A DNA stretch of 64,000 nucleotides from Deltaproteobacteria bacterium (GTDB lineage: Bacteria > Desulfobacterota > BSN033 > UBA1163). This document shows, in pieces, positions 1-9,001 of the stretch (position 1 is the stretch's first letter; every line of letters begins with the position of its first letter). Below the pieces are notes generated by a model. It was not told the DNA's origin. It was given only the letters and a program-made list of their open reading frames with translations, and did no database searches. The stretch is taken from contig VGRY01000011.1 in NCBI GenBank assembly GCA_016875195.1, positions 1 to 64,000 on the forward strand. Reading direction: 5' to 3'. The translations under genes and the position numbers were made by a program.

Positions 1-125
1 CTCAAGCTGCGAAAGCCTCTGGAAGAAGATGATCGGAAAGCCGTATTCGGGAAAACTGAATGTACGGTTTGATGAGGGGGAGCTGGAGATAGGGCATCAG
101 CCACTACGCCAGCTCTCTACTCTAC
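1..125 (+). mobile_element. 3' end of a group II intron (domain V and domain VI); body lies upstream of the window
   Basis: D5-like hairpin AGCCGTATTCGGGAAAACTGAATGTACGGTTT (about 36-70) followed by D6-like stem GAGGGGGAGCTGG...CCAGCTCTCTACTC and a CTCTAC end; ketosynthase reading frame resumes right after it at 126. Confidence 0.8.
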
Positions 126-257
126 CCCCATTGCGACCTTAACTACACACCGAATCAATCCATTAAGAAGGATGTGCGGGTCGCTATCTCAAACTCTTTC
201 GCTTTCGGTGGCAATAATGTGTGCTTGGTGTTTGGGCGATTTAGTTCGGAGTCATGA
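126..257 (+). CDS. beta-ketoacyl synthase C-terminal exon (partial, downstream of the group II intron)
   Basis: [43 protein letters not shown]: canonical KAS C-terminal motif NSFAFGGNN. Confidence 0.85.
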
Positions 258-301
258 GTTCGTAGTTCGGAGCTGACTACTTTAGGAGAATTGTTTCACA
301 G

Positions 302-1603
302 TTGATAAGCATGGATAAGAAGATGAAGAATAGTTTTTTAAATCAGACTCCTAACTCCGAACACCGAACTCCGAACTCTCCAGAGGAGCCTCGCATCGTC
401 ATCACGGGTCTTGGAATCCTCTCTTCCATTGGAGTGGGGAGGGAAGAGTTCTGGAAGAACTGCCTTCTGGGTGTTCCCGGGATCAAGCCAATCTTGAGGT
501 TTGATGTAAGTTCCTCTCGTTCAAAAATGGGGGGGCAGCTTCCTGAGATCGATTTTAAAACCTTCATCAAGCCTGCCAATCTTAGAAGGATGGACCGAAT
601 TGGAAAGGTGATGGTTTCGGCCGTAAAGATGGCGATCGATGATTCGGGTCTCGATTTAAGCAAAGAAGATCCACATCGAATAGGAATTTCGATCGGGACC
701 GGACTCGGAAGTTCAGATACGGTAGATCAATTTTTCCGTGGACTCTTAAAGGATGGTCCTGTAGGGGCGCAACCCTTACTTTTTCAGACCGCCGTGCCCA
801 ATGCGATCACCAGTCATTGCGCAATTGAATATGGAATCAAAGGGGTCAATATCACTTTTTCCCATAAAGAAACCTCTACAGAGATGGCAATGGCCTATGC
901 CTGTCATCTATTAAGAGAGGGGAAGGCAGATGTTATTCTTACAGGAGGAGGAGATGAGTTGAGCGAGCCTCTCTATCATGTCTATTCCAGACTGGGAGCC
1001 TTATCACCGGGCAAGGAAAAGGGATTCGAGGGAATGAGACCTTTTGATAGGGATCGCAACGGTATAGTTCTGGGAGAAGGAAGTGGAATCCTCGTATTAG
1101 AGAGATTGGAACATGCAGAGAAGAGGGGAGTAAAAATCTATGCAGAGATAGCCGGAGTAGGTCTTTCAGGAAGCACGGACGGAGTTCTCCGGTATGACCA
1201 GAAGGGTAATTCGCTTGCAAAGGCGATGTCCCAAGCTGCACAAGATCCCTCTATAGTCGATTATATTTCCGGTGCGGCCAATTCAACGCTTGACCTGGAT
1301 CGGGTAGAGGCGGTAGCGATCAGAAAGGTTTTTAGGGAGAAGGCCAAAGAAATTTCCGTAAGCAGCCTTAAATCAATGATTGGAGAGTTCGATGGTTCAG
1401 GAGGGGTGAGAGCATGTGGTGTAGCATTAAGCCTCTATCAAGGAATTATTCCTCCAACGATCGGGACTGAACATCTTGATCCCGATTGTGATTTTAATGT
1501 CGTTCTGGGTCAGTCAAAAAAAAGAGAGATACGATCAGCTCTATTGAATAGTTGCTCCAACGGTGGTTCGAATATTTCTTTGTGGCTCAAACGTTATGTG
1601 TAA
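302..1603 (+). CDS. beta-ketoacyl synthase-like protein lacking catalytic residues (chain-length-factor/KS-beta-like)
   Basis: KAS fold motifs (RIVITGLGILSSIG, PFDRDRNGIVLGEGSGILVLE, SSLKSMIGEFDGSGG, SCSNGGSNISL); Cys/His/His positions replaced. Confidence 0.85.
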   Translation: MISMDKKMKNSFLNQTPNSEHRTPNSPEEPRIVITGLGILSSIGVGREEFWKNCLLGVPGIKPILRFDVSSSRSKMGGQLPEIDFKTFIKPANLRRMDRIGKVMVSAVKMAIDDSGLDLSKEDPHRIGISIGTGLGSSDTVDQFFRGLLKDGPVGAQPLLFQTAVPNAITSHCAIEYGIKGVNITFSHKETSTEMAMAYACHLLREGKADVILTGGGDELSEPLYHVYSRLGALSPGKEKGFEGMRPFDRDRNGIVLGEGSGILVLERLEHAEKRGVKIYAEIAGVGLSGSTDGVLRYDQKGNSLAKAMSQAAQDPSIVDYISGAANSTLDLDRVEAVAIRKVFREKAKEISVSSLKSMIGEFDGSGGVRACGVALSLYQGIIPPTIGTEHLDPDCDFNVVLGQSKKREIRSALLNSCSNGGSNISLWLKRYV

Positions 1604-1881: not shown

Positions 1882-3969
1882 TCATTCGACTCGTGGCTCC
1901 GGCCTCTGCTCTCGTGCAGGAGGTTTGATCTCCTGTCGTCTTGCCACACGTGGTTCAGGTCTTTGCTCTATCGTCGGAGGAGGCGTCCCCCGGCCTTGAC
2001 TTGTAACCGGAGGTCTGACACTCTGACTTGGAGGAGGAGAAGCTTGTCTTGATTTATCAATCTCCCTTACAGGTGGCCTTTCCAGACGTGTGTCTGACCT
2101 TTGATCCCCTCTGGAAGGGGGCATCACCTGGCTTGGACCCGAATCCGGCGGCCTATTCCCCAGACTTCCCGAAGGAACGGGTTGACCTGGTCTATCCATA
2201 CCCCTAGTCGAAGGTTTTATTTCCTGTTGTTTTTCCATTTTTTGTTCTGGCTTTAGTTCTTTTTGAATTTGCCGTTCCCCTTCTTGGCGTCTCTGCTCAG
2301 AAGGTTTTTGAATCTCTCTTTCGGGGGTAGTACCGCTCTTCCGGTCAAGAGTTGACCTATCTTTCGATTTATCTCTCTCAAGCTCTATGGGTTTTCGATC
2401 TTTTCTCGGACGTTCAACCCCTGGTTGAGGTGTTCTTTCTATTTGTTTTTCAACCCTTTCAGAAGGTTTTCGATCGATTGTTTTCTCCGCCTTCCTAACA
2501 GAAATTTTTCGATCTCTCCCTTTTTCCATTTCTCTCGCTGCTGGCCGTTCTCCGACTCGATCTATCCCTTTCTCTACGGGTCCTCCTTCCCTTCTTTTAA
2601 TCGTCATCTCCCTGGGTGGGAATTCAGGTCGTAGAACTGAGACTTCCCGCTCTTTAACCAATGGGCGCCTTTCCTTTACTTCTCTTACTTTGATCTCCTG
2701 AACTTTTTCGGGGGGCCTCCTGACCTGAGGAATTTCGCGAACGACAGGCATCACCGTTGTTCGTTCTGGTTTAATATTGGGCCTTCCAATATGTATTCTC
2801 TCTCTCAAAAAGGGATTCTCTCTTTCCCTCACTTCGACATGCCTTCCATGAACAAACGTGTCATGGTGAACAATTGTGACGGCGTTATGAACATGAACAT
2901 TTCGATAGACTATCTTCCCAACATTGATAGTATTGATGTTGATATTTGTGATATTGATGCTGTGAGGGCCGTAATATCCATGACCGTAGTAGATCTCCCT
3001 CGGCGCCAGTGGAACCCAAGATACATGGGTAGGGGTACGAACCCAACCCACAAATCCAGGCCCCCAGTAGACGGCTCCTCTCGCAGGAGGAACCCAGCAC
3101 CATCCGAAAGAGGCGACGAATGCCCATCGGCCATAGTGATAGGGTACCCAGCCCCATGGTTCGTAGGAGATCCAGACATAGTCACCCCTGATCCATACCC
3201 ATCTCCCTAATCGGTAAGGAGCCCATCCTGCGGAAACGACTATCGTAGGAGTCCAGACATGACCGTATTCCCTCACATAAACCCATCTTCCATTATCTTC
3301 AAAGTCGTTCGAATAGGGGGAAAGCTCTTCGGGAAGATATCGAGAAGGGGCGCGACGATAAGCGTACTTCTGGTTTCGGTTACGATTCCATTCCTCCCAT
3401 GCATCTGGTGGGCCTATGGGACCGAGTTCTGTGGGAAGTCCATCCCTCAGGGCGAGGGTCCTGTCTTGATCCACTCTGAGTCTCCCATCTTGGTTCTCTG
3501 CCGTAACAGAACCCATGTATACGGATATGTCTGTACTACGATCATCCAATAGGTCAATTCGAAAGATTGCCCGATCATGAGCTCTAACAGATGACATGGG
3601 TGTGTCAATCTGGAGAACGGTGTCTCTTAATCCCTTGAAATTAGCATAAACCCGACCTTCTGGGAGATAAAATTGAAAGGAATTTTTTTCAAGGGTGAGG
3701 ACATCGAAAGCGGTTTTTTCATCAAGCCTCAGGGCGGTTCCATCCCTTAACTGAAGCTCAATCCGGCTCCCTTCAGGTACCCAGATTCGATCCCCATCTT
3801 TCAATGGCATGTTGATGGATGCAGGGACCCAATCACCTGTGTCCTCTGTATTGACCTGGGCGTCGCCTTCAATGAAGCTAATGCGTAAACCCCCAAGGGT
3901 TGCCGGGTAGGATATTGTAGGAAGAAAAATGAGTACCGCCATCAGCACCACCCATCTTAATATTTTCAT
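1882..3969 (-). CDS. FecR-domain / DUF6600-type secreted protein with long charged Pro/Arg/Lys-rich C-terminal tail
   Basis: signal peptide, FecR-like DGDRIWVPEGSRIELQLRDG, YVWISYEPWGWVPYHYGRWAF aromatic repeats; RPEPRV repeats at C-terminus. Confidence 0.75.
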   Translation of the reverse strand: MKILRWVVLMAVLIFLPTISYPATLGGLRISFIEGDAQVNTEDTGDWVPASINMPLKDGDRIWVPEGSRIELQLRDGTALRLDEKTAFDVLTLEKNSFQFYLPEGRVYANFKGLRDTVLQIDTPMSSVRAHDRAIFRIDLLDDRSTDISVYMGSVTAENQDGRLRVDQDRTLALRDGLPTELGPIGPPDAWEEWNRNRNQKYAYRRAPSRYLPEELSPYSNDFEDNGRWVYVREYGHVWTPTIVVSAGWAPYRLGRWVWIRGDYVWISYEPWGWVPYHYGRWAFVASFGWCWVPPARGAVYWGPGFVGWVRTPTHVSWVPLAPREIYYGHGYYGPHSINITNININTINVGKIVYRNVHVHNAVTIVHHDTFVHGRHVEVRERENPFLRERIHIGRPNIKPERTTVMPVVREIPQVRRPPEKVQEIKVREVKERRPLVKEREVSVLRPEFPPREMTIKRREGGPVEKGIDRVGERPAAREMEKGRDRKISVRKAEKTIDRKPSERVEKQIERTPQPGVERPRKDRKPIELERDKSKDRSTLDRKSGTTPEREIQKPSEQRRQEGERQIQKELKPEQKMEKQQEIKPSTRGMDRPGQPVPSGSLGNRPPDSGPSQVMPPSRGDQRSDTRLERPPVREIDKSRQASPPPSQSVRPPVTSQGRGTPPPTIEQRPEPRVARRQEIKPPAREQRPEPRVE

Positions 3970-5327: not shown

Positions 5328-6839
5328 TTGTGTTATACTGCTGACATTATGTCTGACATGGATGTCATCATCATCGGAGCAGGAGTGGCTGGCCTGACTT
5401 GCGGTTGCCTTTTAGCCCAAAGAGGGCTGAAAGTGCTGATCGTTGAAAAAAACCAAAAAATTGGCGGCTGCTGTTCCTCTTTTCAGAAAGAAGGGTTCTC
5501 TTTCGATCTCTCTGTCCAATCGTTGGGTGAATGCCAGGAGGGAGGACGAATCTGGAATTTACTGAGAAAGTTGGGTATTCTTCATCACCTCCGCTTTATC
5601 CCTCTTGAGCCGGCAAGGGAGTATCACTTCCCGGATCAGAAGATCGTTCAGTCTTCTCAACTTGAAACTCACATCGAACACCTCTCTAGAGTCTTTCCAG
5701 ATCAGAGAAAAGGGATTAGCCAGGTCTACGAAGTTCTGAGAAAGATCTTTGATGAATTTTCTCATGTCCCTTCATCTCTCAACTGGTTCGATCCGTCTTC
5801 CCTCAGTTCGCAGTTTCCTTTTCTCTTGAGATATAAAGATCAGACCTTTGGACAACTCCTCGGTGAATACATCTCTCATCCTTTCTTGAAAACCATCCTC
5901 TCCATTCGAACTTCTTATGCCTTGCTTCCTCCAGAAGAAATCTCTGTGGTGGGAATGGCAGGGATTGAGATGTCCTATTTCAACCACGGCGTCTCATGTT
6001 TGGAGGGAAGGGTGGAACAGTTTCCGCTGGCAATGGGGGAGGCTTTCAAGGGGATGAATGGGAAAATGATTGCCGGGCAGGAAGTTGAAAAAATACTAAT
6101 GAATAAAAAAGAAGCTATCGGCATCAAACTAACAGATGGCCAAGAATTGACAGGAAAGGTTATTATCTCCAATATCGATGCACAAGCGACTTTTTCCACT
6201 CTTCTCAGTGAGGATAGTATCCCCATGGCCTATAGGTCGAAACTGAAAGGGATGAGGCCCTCTCTCTCTTATTTTATCCTCTATCTTGGAATTGATGGGA
6301 GCTTGGAAGAGCTTTCTATATCCAATAACGAGGTTTTTCCAGACGATCAAATTTCGCAGGAGTATCAAGCCCTCTATGAAAATCGGATTCCTGGTGGAGC
6401 GCCTTTCTATCTGCTTGCTCCATCCAAAGTCAATCCCTCTCATACGCCTGAAGGAAAGAGCACGCTCTGCTTGAGCATGAAGGCTCCGTATCATTTCAGT
6501 GGAGGGTGGGCTCAAAAGACCATTGATGAACTCTCTGAGTTTCTCATTTCCAGAGCGGCGGTTCTGATTCCTGACCTGAGGAAGAGGATTCTGGTTAAAG
6601 CAGAGGCCACTCCAAAGACAATTGAGAAATGGACAGGGAATCTTTCAGGAGCGGCTTATGGATGGGCCCAGATCCCAAGCCAATCCGGTATCCACCGTCT
6701 CCAGCGGACAACTCCTATTCCAAATCTCTTTTTAACCGGACACTGGACATCGCCAGGCGGAGGGATCGCAGCTGTGGTAGCTTCGGGAGAGTTGACAGCC
6801 GAAGTAATTTGGAGCAAATTTGAGAGAGGAGAATCTTAA
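5328..6839 (+). CDS. FAD-dependent phytoene desaturase/CrtISO-like oxidoreductase
   Basis: DVIIIGAGVAGLTCGCLLAQRGLKVLIVEKNQKIGG Rossmann motif; C-terminal NLFLTGHWTSPGGGIAAVVASG. Confidence 0.85.
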   Translation: MCYTADIMSDMDVIIIGAGVAGLTCGCLLAQRGLKVLIVEKNQKIGGCCSSFQKEGFSFDLSVQSLGECQEGGRIWNLLRKLGILHHLRFIPLEPAREYHFPDQKIVQSSQLETHIEHLSRVFPDQRKGISQVYEVLRKIFDEFSHVPSSLNWFDPSSLSSQFPFLLRYKDQTFGQLLGEYISHPFLKTILSIRTSYALLPPEEISVVGMAGIEMSYFNHGVSCLEGRVEQFPLAMGEAFKGMNGKMIAGQEVEKILMNKKEAIGIKLTDGQELTGKVIISNIDAQATFSTLLSEDSIPMAYRSKLKGMRPSLSYFILYLGIDGSLEELSISNNEVFPDDQISQEYQALYENRIPGGAPFYLLAPSKVNPSHTPEGKSTLCLSMKAPYHFSGGWAQKTIDELSEFLISRAAVLIPDLRKRILVKAEATPKTIEKWTGNLSGAAYGWAQIPSQSGIHRLQRTTPIPNLFLTGHWTSPGGGIAAVVASGELTAEVIWSKFERGES

Positions 6840-7664
6840 ATGGTTCGAAAATCGTATTCGTTTTTATCCCCTCTCCCCCAGGTGGCTGTGTCGCAATCCC
6901 CTTTTCGTCATTGCGAGCGACCAGAGGGAGCGTGGCAATCTAAGGATTATCAATACCGTATGAGATTGCTTCGGTTGTTTCACTCCCTCGCAATGACATT
7001 ACGACACAGTCTCCAAAGGGGAAGAGATGGGGTGAGGGGGGAACAGTGGAGAGATAATAAATATCGGTTCCTATGTTTCAGTCTACTACTTTTAGGAATT
7101 CTTCTTACAGGATGTCCTAAGAAGATTGAAATCATCCCCCCCGAGAAGCCACCCTTTGAAAATCCGGTCATCAAACTTCTTGAGAAGTTTTCCCCTGCAG
7201 AATCTCTTCAGGCAAGAGCCTCCATCCGAATCGAAACAGTGAGAGATGGAGAGGAGATGAACTTTATCCTTAATGGATTTCTCCTCTATCAAAAGCCCGA
7301 TAAATTTCGGCTCCTCGGCTATCACCCATTGGGAATGGGGCTTTTCGATGCACTCTACCGGAACGGTGAGTTCTTTCTCCTGATTCCGCCCCAGAAAAGG
7401 GCCTATACTGGAGAAGTCTCCCAGTTTGAAAATGTGATGGCAAAGGCAGGGGAAATCAAAATCTCTTCAGAAAAGGGCGAAGGGAATGAGATTCCCAATC
7501 GCATCCAGATTGAACTGGTGGAGAAAGAGACCCGCATTGATTTGCGATTGAGAGGAATTTCTATCAATCCCTCCCTGCCCGAAGACAGCTTCCGATGGAA
7601 TGTTCCGGAAGGAGTAGAGGTGAGATCCATCGAGAGGCTTTTGAGAGGATTGAAACGTAGATGA
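6840..7664 (+). CDS. outer-membrane lipoprotein, LolB/DUF4292-like; true start probably downstream near the lipobox
   Basis: lipobox LLLLGILLTGC; AAs 1-60 encode the repeat rather than protein; beta-rich lipoprotein body. Confidence 0.65.
   Translation: MVRKSYSFLSPLPQVAVSQSPFRHCERPEGAWQSKDYQYRMRLLRLFHSLAMTLRHSLQRGRDGVRGEQWRDNKYRFLCFSLLLLGILLTGCPKKIEIIPPEKPPFENPVIKLLEKFSPAESLQARASIRIETVRDGEEMNFILNGFLLYQKPDKFRLLGYHPLGMGLFDALYRNGEFFLLIPPQKRAYTGEVSQFENVMAKAGEIKISSEKGEGNEIPNRIQIELVEKETRIDLRLRGISINPSLPEDSFRWNVPEGVEVRSIERLLRGLKRR
6905..7000. repeat. REP/MITE-like palindromic repeat family E, copy 1 (GTCATTGCGAGCGACC...CCTCGCAATGAC)
   Basis: inverted ends TCATTGCGAG / CTCGCAATGA; second related copy at 35108-35180; lies in the N-terminal part of ORF 6840-7664. 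Confidence 0.75.
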
Positions 7665-9001
7665 AAATTGCCCTGATCATCCCCAGATGGCCCAAAGACA
7701 GTTTCTGGGATGTGATCGCCTTTAAATTCCCACTCCTCTCTACCTCACTTCTTGCCAGCCTGACTCCTGCCCAACACCAGGTCAGCGTCATTGATGAGAG
7801 CATCTCTGAAATTGACTTTGATCAGGACGTTGATCTAGTCGCGATTACAGCCATCACTCCACTTGCCCCAAGAGGCTATGAGATTGCGGATCAATTCCGG
7901 CAGAAGGGAAAGAAGGTGGTCATGGGAGGAATCCATGTCTCGTGGCTTCCTGAAGAGGCAAAACGACATGCAGACAGCGTTGTTATTGGTGAAGCGGATG
8001 AAATCTGGGCTGATATTTTAAAGGATGCAGAGAAAGGATCACTTAGACCTTTTTACCAACAGGAAGAAAGAACTGACCTGAGTCGTCTTCCCATTGCCCG
8101 AAGGGATCTTCTTCCCCGGAAAGGCTACCTCTTTCACAACCTGATACAGACCACCCGGGGATGTCCCTATGACTGCGAGTTCTGCTCGGTGACTGCCCTT
8201 CATGGGAAAACTTATAGGATGAGGCCGATTTTCGAAGTCGAAAAGGAGATTCAATCCTTGGAGCGTTCAAAAGCCTACATCTTCTTTGTTGATGACAATC
8301 TCGTTGGAAACCTCTCCTATGCGAGGGAACTCCTGACGATGCTTTCCCATTACCGATTGCGGTGGGTGAGTCAGGGGCCGATTCATATCGCCGAAAATGA
8401 AGAGATCCTTTCACTCATGGCGAGAGCCGGATGTCACGGACTCTTTATCGGGTTTGAGAGCCTTCGCGAAGAGAACCTCGACCTGATGGGAAAGAAAATA
8501 AATCGGGTAAAGATGTATGAGAAGGGGATCCAGAGGCTTCATGATACAGGCATCGGAGTCTATGGTTCCTTTGTCTTTGGATACGATTATGACGATGTTT
8601 CGGTCTTCGATGAATTTCTGGAGTTTGCCAATCGAAACAGGATCGACGGGACGTTCCTTCCTATTCTTACCCCATTTCCAGGGACACGGATCTACCAGAG
8701 ATTAAAGAAGGAAGGGAGACTCCTCACGGAGGACTGGTCGAAGTACGATATGGCAACGGTCGTTTTCCAGCCGAAGAAAATGACTGTGGAGGAGCTTCAG
8801 GAAGGGTTCTGGAAGGTGAATCGGTCTTTCTACTCTCCTTCTTCGATGGCGAAAAGGATCTTCCATCCCTTTCATCTCAGAAGAAGCCTGATCATCTTCG
8901 GCCCCATGAACCTTGGTCTCTGGCCCGCCGTCAAAAAAGCCGAACGATATTTCATAACTTTAAATAAGGACCCCAAACGATCTATTAAAAAGAGCAATTA
9001 G
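7661..9001 (+). CDS. B12-binding-domain radical SAM protein
   Basis: N-terminal cobalamin-binding-like domain, TTRGCPYDCEFCSV [4Fe-4S] motif. Confidence 0.9.
   Translation: MKIALIIPRWPKDSFWDVIAFKFPLLSTSLLASLTPAQHQVSVIDESISEIDFDQDVDLVAITAITPLAPRGYEIADQFRQKGKKVVMGGIHVSWLPEEAKRHADSVVIGEADEIWADILKDAEKGSLRPFYQQEERTDLSRLPIARRDLLPRKGYLFHNLIQTTRGCPYDCEFCSVTALHGKTYRMRPIFEVEKEIQSLERSKAYIFFVDDNLVGNLSYARELLTMLSHYRLRWVSQGPIHIAENEEILSLMARAGCHGLFIGFESLREENLDLMGKKINRVKMYEKGIQRLHDTGIGVYGSFVFGYDYDDVSVFDEFLEFANRNRIDGTFLPILTPFPGTRIYQRLKKEGRLLTEDWSKYDMATVVFQPKKMTVEELQEGFWKVNRSFYSPSSMAKRIFHPFHLRRSLIIFGPMNLGLWPAVKKAERYFITLNKDPKRSIKKSN

Follow-up and report, generated by a model that had tools for sequence, protein, structure and literature searches.

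The gene at positions 302–1603 (+) of the window, by which we mean the whole stretch of DNA analyzed here (positions 1–64,000 of contig C11 in one deltaproteobacterial genome, G000), encodes a ketosynthase (KS) homologue in which all three catalytic residues have been replaced. We consider this protein to be the non-catalytic beta subunit of a ketosynthase heterodimer, with a probability of roughly three in four, in which it would shape the acyl tunnel of the catalytic ketosynthase encoded directly upstream, within a ladderane-type lipid operon. Throughout, we refer to the gene at 302–1603 as KS-beta2, to its upstream partner as KS-alpha, and to the other inactive ketosynthase of the same operon as KS-beta1 or CLF1. 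The replacement of the triad, purifying selection on KS-beta2, an intact KS-alpha, the conserved pairing of the two genes and a distinct KS-beta clade are all directly established.

The KS-beta2 protein is a CLF-like ketosynthase homologue of 433 aa whose start is uncertain, with TTG 302 giving the longest frame and ATG 311 as the alternative, and residues 1–27 are of low confidence in the AlphaFold2 model (mean pLDDT 77.8, pTM 0.82). Both ketoacyl-synthase Pfam halves are matched (PF00109 at 126 bits and PF02801 at 61 bits), FabF structures align to the protein at E ∼ 1e-76, and a fold search with the model matched full-length FabF at TM 0.8–0.87. Against TIGR03150, the family of FabF (beta-ketoacyl-ACP synthase II), the protein scores 324.9 bits, below the cut-off of 493.75, and the triad is absent. 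Short repeats of the type CCGAACTCCGAACTC at window positions 238–420 span the N-terminal ∼25 residues of the KS-beta2 frame. Repeats of this type recur just upstream of the gene in opposite orientation, and residues resembling the repeat stretch (NSEHRTPNSP) are found in some KS-beta2 orthologues.

A first-pass annotation of this DNA had proposed that the nucleophilic Cys was replaced by Glu, the His of the HGT motif by Ala and the His of the KSMIGH motif by Glu. Residue-level alignments show that all three replacements are real, at E190 (codon 869–871, +), A325 (codon 1274–1276, +) and E362 (codon 1385–1387, +). In the AlphaFold2 model E190 begins the helix 189–205, which is where ketosynthases carry their nucleophile. 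We also considered whether a Cys/His/His set lies elsewhere in the fold, an outcome that would speak against the annotation, and rejected this relocation because no Cys or His is invariant across 18 KS-beta rows. The loss of the triad in KS-beta2 is thus confirmed, and it reflects neither chance nor decay.

The replacements were followed across the KS-beta2 orthologues of 26 genomes within the phylum, all Deltaproteobacteria/Thermodesulfobacteriota MAGs; a scan of named genomes with the window family returned MAGs of this group and one actinobacterium. Position 190 is Glu in 26/26 genomes. At position 325, 24/26 have Ala and the remaining two Gly or Ser, and at position 362 there are 20 genomes with Glu, five with Asp and one with Ser; His is found at neither of the latter two positions in any of the 26. 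The former active-site strand and loop (158–192 and 319–333) are still among the best-conserved stretches of the protein. When compared with near relatives, KS-beta2 has a dN/dS of 0.05–0.12, similar to that of KS-alpha (0.06–0.09). On these values we rejected the reading of KS-beta2 as a decaying pseudogene copy of the neighboring KS, which the loss of all three catalytic residues might otherwise suggest; together with the open frame, the fixation of the replacements in 26 genomes and the rejection of KS-beta2 as a local duplication of KS-alpha (AU p 3e-7), they leave decay with a negligible probability. A KSQ-type malonyl-ACP decarboxylase making acetyl starter units would likewise carry a replaced nucleophile, and Glu is a Gln-like residue. 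However, the residue is Glu and not Gln, and decarboxylation requires the two His (Rattray 2009, PMC2649909), whereas KS-beta2 has Ala and Glu in their place and none of the orthologues has His at either site. With E/A/E at the three positions we rejected this alternative as well, and regard it as highly improbable.

The catalytic partner is interrupted in the window genome. The window opens with the 3′ end of a group II intron at 1–126 (+), recognized by Rfam RF00029 at 36–125 (46.5 bits), followed by the 3′ exon of KS-alpha at 127–258 (+), which encodes ...FAFGGNN.... The intron end at 126 was picked as the base that restores the frame and is ambiguous inside a run of C. The 5′ exon, comprising the first 364 codons, lies outside the window on contig C17 of the same genome (C17:1–1093, −), and joining C17:1 to window position 127 yields a single uninterrupted KS-alpha frame. 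Contigs C17 and C11 therefore appear to adjoin, a reading supported by four relatives (G008, G004, G001 and G012) that have the same genes adjacent without the intron, and an intact KS-alpha gene. The intron is multi-copy, with copies on contigs C77, C42 and C16, and this multiplicity would account for the assembly break between C17 and C11, which falls at the site where the intron interrupts KS-alpha. The initial reading of a KS split by a group II intron directly upstream is thereby supported. That partner might also have lacked the catalytic residues, which would have undermined the idea of an active and inactive pair, but KS-alpha of the window genome keeps Cys/His/His (VCSSSS, AHGTAT and KSIVGH), as does every complete KS-alpha partner examined. 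Elsewhere in the genome, another KS-like gene (L012, contig C12, 40547–42969, −) appears as two separate pieces ∼1.2 kb apart.

The two genes travel together. KS-alpha adjoins KS-beta2 in about 16 genomes of families f1, f2, f21 and f25, and among 395 genomes of the phylum, at the thresholds used, KS-beta2 was found in 24, KS-alpha in 22 and both in 21 (Fisher p 1e-30, uncorrected for kinship), with the unpaired cases being contig-edge fragments or sub-threshold partial matches. Linkage is lost in family f12, though both genes are retained in 7/7 genomes. These seven genomes count against the heterodimer and could instead indicate a homodimeric pseudoenzyme, acting as a scaffold or ACP sink with no pairing to KS-alpha, particularly as ketosynthases are homodimers by default. 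Yet both genes persist even where they are unlinked, adjacency is conserved elsewhere, and PDB entries 9s5h and 9s5i contain both members of a homologous pair, such that we regard a homodimer as very unlikely.

The pair is embedded in a conserved cluster. In the relatives G008, G004, G001 and G012, the gene order runs from an acyl-CoA dehydrogenase through KS-beta1, a small multidrug-export-like protein, FabZ and two methyltransferases to LolA, KS-alpha, KS-beta2, a CrtI-like protein, a putative lipoprotein and, last, a B12 radical SAM protein; G012 gave no LolA match. Downstream of KS-beta2 in the window, these last genes are a CrtI/phytoene-desaturase-like flavoprotein (5328–6839, +), the putative lipoprotein (6840–7664, +), which is LolB-like by reading only and has no Pfam or NCBIfam match, and a B12-binding radical SAM protein (7661–9001, +) with a weak match to TIGR04072 rSAM_ladder_B12 (78.8 bits, cut-off 360). 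Between KS-beta2 and the CrtI-like gene, the window genome carries a FecR/DUF6600 gene and a NUDIX gene in antisense orientation; the FecR/DUF6600 protein (1882–3969, −) has a long repetitive charged C-terminus and occupies the same site in several relatives, though not all. A motif scan over the cluster loci gave no ACP candidate, nor did the cluster show a ketoreductase, which weighs against the heterodimer reading; both must therefore come from elsewhere in the genome.

A further point against this reading is that the operon holds a second KS-beta, and either could pair with KS-alpha. KS-beta1 (L010:6737–8044, on contig C17, −) is also inactive, with Phe/Ala/Glu at the three positions. In two other genomes (G031, L086:6633–9085, and G044, L093), CLF1 directly follows its own intact KS, a KS that is missing from the operon in the window's family, so the ancestral operon may have contained two KS-alpha/KS-beta pairs. 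It is possible, though we put this forward only tentatively, that the two dead KS-betas, with Glu in KS-beta2 and Phe in CLF1, now share the one catalytic KS-alpha as alternative heterodimers. If so, each heterodimer would serve its own stage, or its own chain length, within a single lipid pathway.

To place KS-beta2 among ketosynthases, we examined a tree in which KS-beta2, CLF1, chain C of 9s5h and one Streptomyces CLF are separated from all catalytic KSs by a branch with values of 99/98. Since this split is unchanged after removal of the active-site columns, the substitutions themselves are not its cause. The branching order on the KS-beta side is unsettled, with chain C of 9s5h on the same side as KS-beta2, and long branches (the Streptomyces CLFs and 9s5h chain C) leave deep placements unsure. 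The act-type Streptomyces CLF (L112) groups with the catalytic KSs, although its separation from KS-beta2 is not significant, as a single clade of the two is not formally rejected (AU p = 0.087).

By gene order and sequence, KS-beta2 comes closest to the non-canonical FabF of ladderane-type clusters, represented by Kuste3606. FabF paralogues without active-site residues were described in Kuenenia stuttgartiensis and proposed to recruit non-FASII products (Rattray 2009, PMC2649909), and Kuste3606 follows the FabF Kuste3605 beside FabZ, phytoene-desaturase-like and radical SAM genes in kuste3603–3608, a candidate cluster for ladderane synthesis (PMC4790861). Both Kuste3606 and KS-beta2 directly follow a canonical FabF in a set with FabZ, phytoene-desaturase-like and radical SAM genes, and both have lost the Cys and both His, with Glu at the position of the KSMIGH His. 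They differ at the first two positions, which are Val/Asn in Kuste3606 and Glu/Ala in KS-beta2, and in that the anammox cluster has an ACP gene. The distance between the two is also considerable: Kuste3606 comes from a different phylum, and a long branch of 1.3 changes per column separates the two. Another anammox protein, the Kuste2805-type non-canonical FabB/FabF next to the FabF Kuste2804 and a B12 radical SAM gene, has Phe163 and Glu333 as in CLF1, which in G031 and G044 likewise has a KS of its own beside it, and thus resembles CLF1 and not the window gene, a comparison made through the published residue table and not by alignment.

PDB entries 9s5h and 9s5i contain two different KS chains together, of which chain B has Cys/His/His and chain C is triad-less. 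Chain B of 9s5h is the best PDB match of the window genome's KS-alpha, while chain C carries Val163, Asn298, Tyr300, Gly302, Lys328, Glu333, Gln342 and Arg392, matching all eight Kuste3606 residues of Rattray 2009 Table 2. Judged by these residues, the entries probably represent the anammox Kuste3605/Kuste3606 pair or an orthologue of it. The match came from sequence comparison only; 9s5h was not among the best 50 matches of the fold search (library to April 2026), and a search of PubMed Central for a paper on an anammox KS/non-canonical-KS structure found none. The core of the first-pass annotation, a dead CLF/KS-beta-like KS paired with an upstream catalytic KS, is accordingly supported from several sides, namely intact adjacent pairs in relatives, co-occurrence, a KS-beta clade that survives masking and an apparently co-crystallized PDB pair.

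Other systems offer partial parallels. KS/CLF is an obligate heterodimer of one active and one inactive KS (reviewed in PMC12664062), and the actinorhodin KS-CLF (1TQY) resembles the present case in that a protein with the full-length KS fold adjoins an active KS and has lost the catalytic Cys and His. It differs in that the act-type CLF has Gln at the nucleophile position, compared with the invariant Glu of KS-beta2, and in that a minimal type II PKS carries an ACP. Gln or Glu in place of Cys had been offered as a hallmark of CLFs; the Cys is indeed replaced, but by Glu, and the act-type CLF that we fetched has Gln. The suggested parallel with aryl polyene KS-CLF pairs proved poor. The aryl polyene CLF, ApeC, is half-size (PMC8358021), with a single thiolase domain and 240 aa in E. 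coli CFT073 as opposed to the 433 aa and both Pfam halves of KS-beta2, and we rejected an ApeC identity on this difference in protein size. The similarity to ApeC is that an active KS is paired with an inactive protein and that the operon includes a dehydratase and a LolA-like gene. Finally, the present case resembles ishigamide-type highly reducing KS-CLF pairs and AmcF-AmcG, which belong to reduced, non-aromatic pathways and join an active KS to a partner lacking the motifs, though their accessory genes differ from those of the KS-beta2 cluster. The Streptomyces CLF that shares the KS-beta clade (L113) is probably of the ishigamide type, but its placement is unsure, with a very long branch and Ala/Pro/Asp at the three positions.

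How such a pair could work can be outlined as follows. KS-alpha would supply the Cys/His/His site and carry out decarboxylative condensation on ACP-bound chains, while KS-beta2, unable to hold an acyl thioester or to decarboxylate malonyl-ACP, would complete the dimer and form part of the wall, or the end, of the acyl tunnel of KS-alpha. In doing so it would set which chains KS-alpha accepts and how long they grow. We infer both the heterodimer and this tunnel function, and likewise a polyunsaturated or cyclized lipid product, with the pair predicted to act alongside the FabZ dehydratase, methyltransferases, CrtI-like flavoenzyme, B12 radical SAM protein and LolA-like carrier of the ladderane-type lipid operon.

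The invariance of E190 raises a different possibility, that this Glu is catalytic instead of structural. KS-beta2 would then be an active enzyme with changed chemistry, its E190 serving as acid/base on the ACP-bound chain in concert with K357 and E362, for example as a cyclization factor or in loading a non-FASII building block. Among the orthologues, K357 and E362 are for the most part retained, recruitment of non-FASII products was the suggestion of Rattray 2009, and a precedent exists in AmcG of cispentacin biosynthesis, a KS-like subunit without functional motifs that pairs with the KS AmcF in a heterodimer and is proposed to be a cyclization factor (PMC10698177). On the other hand, position 190 differs among KS-beta relatives, being Glu in KS-beta2, Phe in CLF1, Val in 9s5h chain C and Ala in the inactive KS of L128, and some orthologues carry Asp or Ser at position 362, so there is no common catalytic set in the KS-beta clade. 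We therefore find changed chemistry unlikely, with the caveat that it is compatible with a heterodimer and so not fully separable from the tunnel-shaping role that we prefer.

These results bear on ladderane-type lipid pathways. Normal elongation by the non-canonical FabF paralogues of ladderane-type clusters was judged impossible in 2009, and recruitment of non-FASII products was then proposed; conserved pairing, selection and the apparently co-crystallized pair point instead to KS-alpha/KS-beta heterodimers in these clusters. If this is true, the logic of chain-length factors operates in a lipid pathway beyond the classic aromatic and aryl polyene systems, and a condensation step of ladderane-type pathways becomes testable in vitro, with new orthologues for expression provided by the second lineage. 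According to PMC9821293, E. coli expressing the anammox genes did not produce ladderane. KS-beta2 extends a known but poorly understood kind of protein, the ladderane-type non-canonical FabF, to an uncultured Deltaproteobacteria/Thermodesulfobacteriota lineage in which the Glu is fixed and, unusually, one operon holds two KS-betas. Intact KSs with an adjacent inactive KS also occur in other families, in G321 (L128), G106 (L129), G034 (L102) and G026 (L104), where the nucleophile position of the inactive KS is Ala, Glu, Glu and Arg, respectively.
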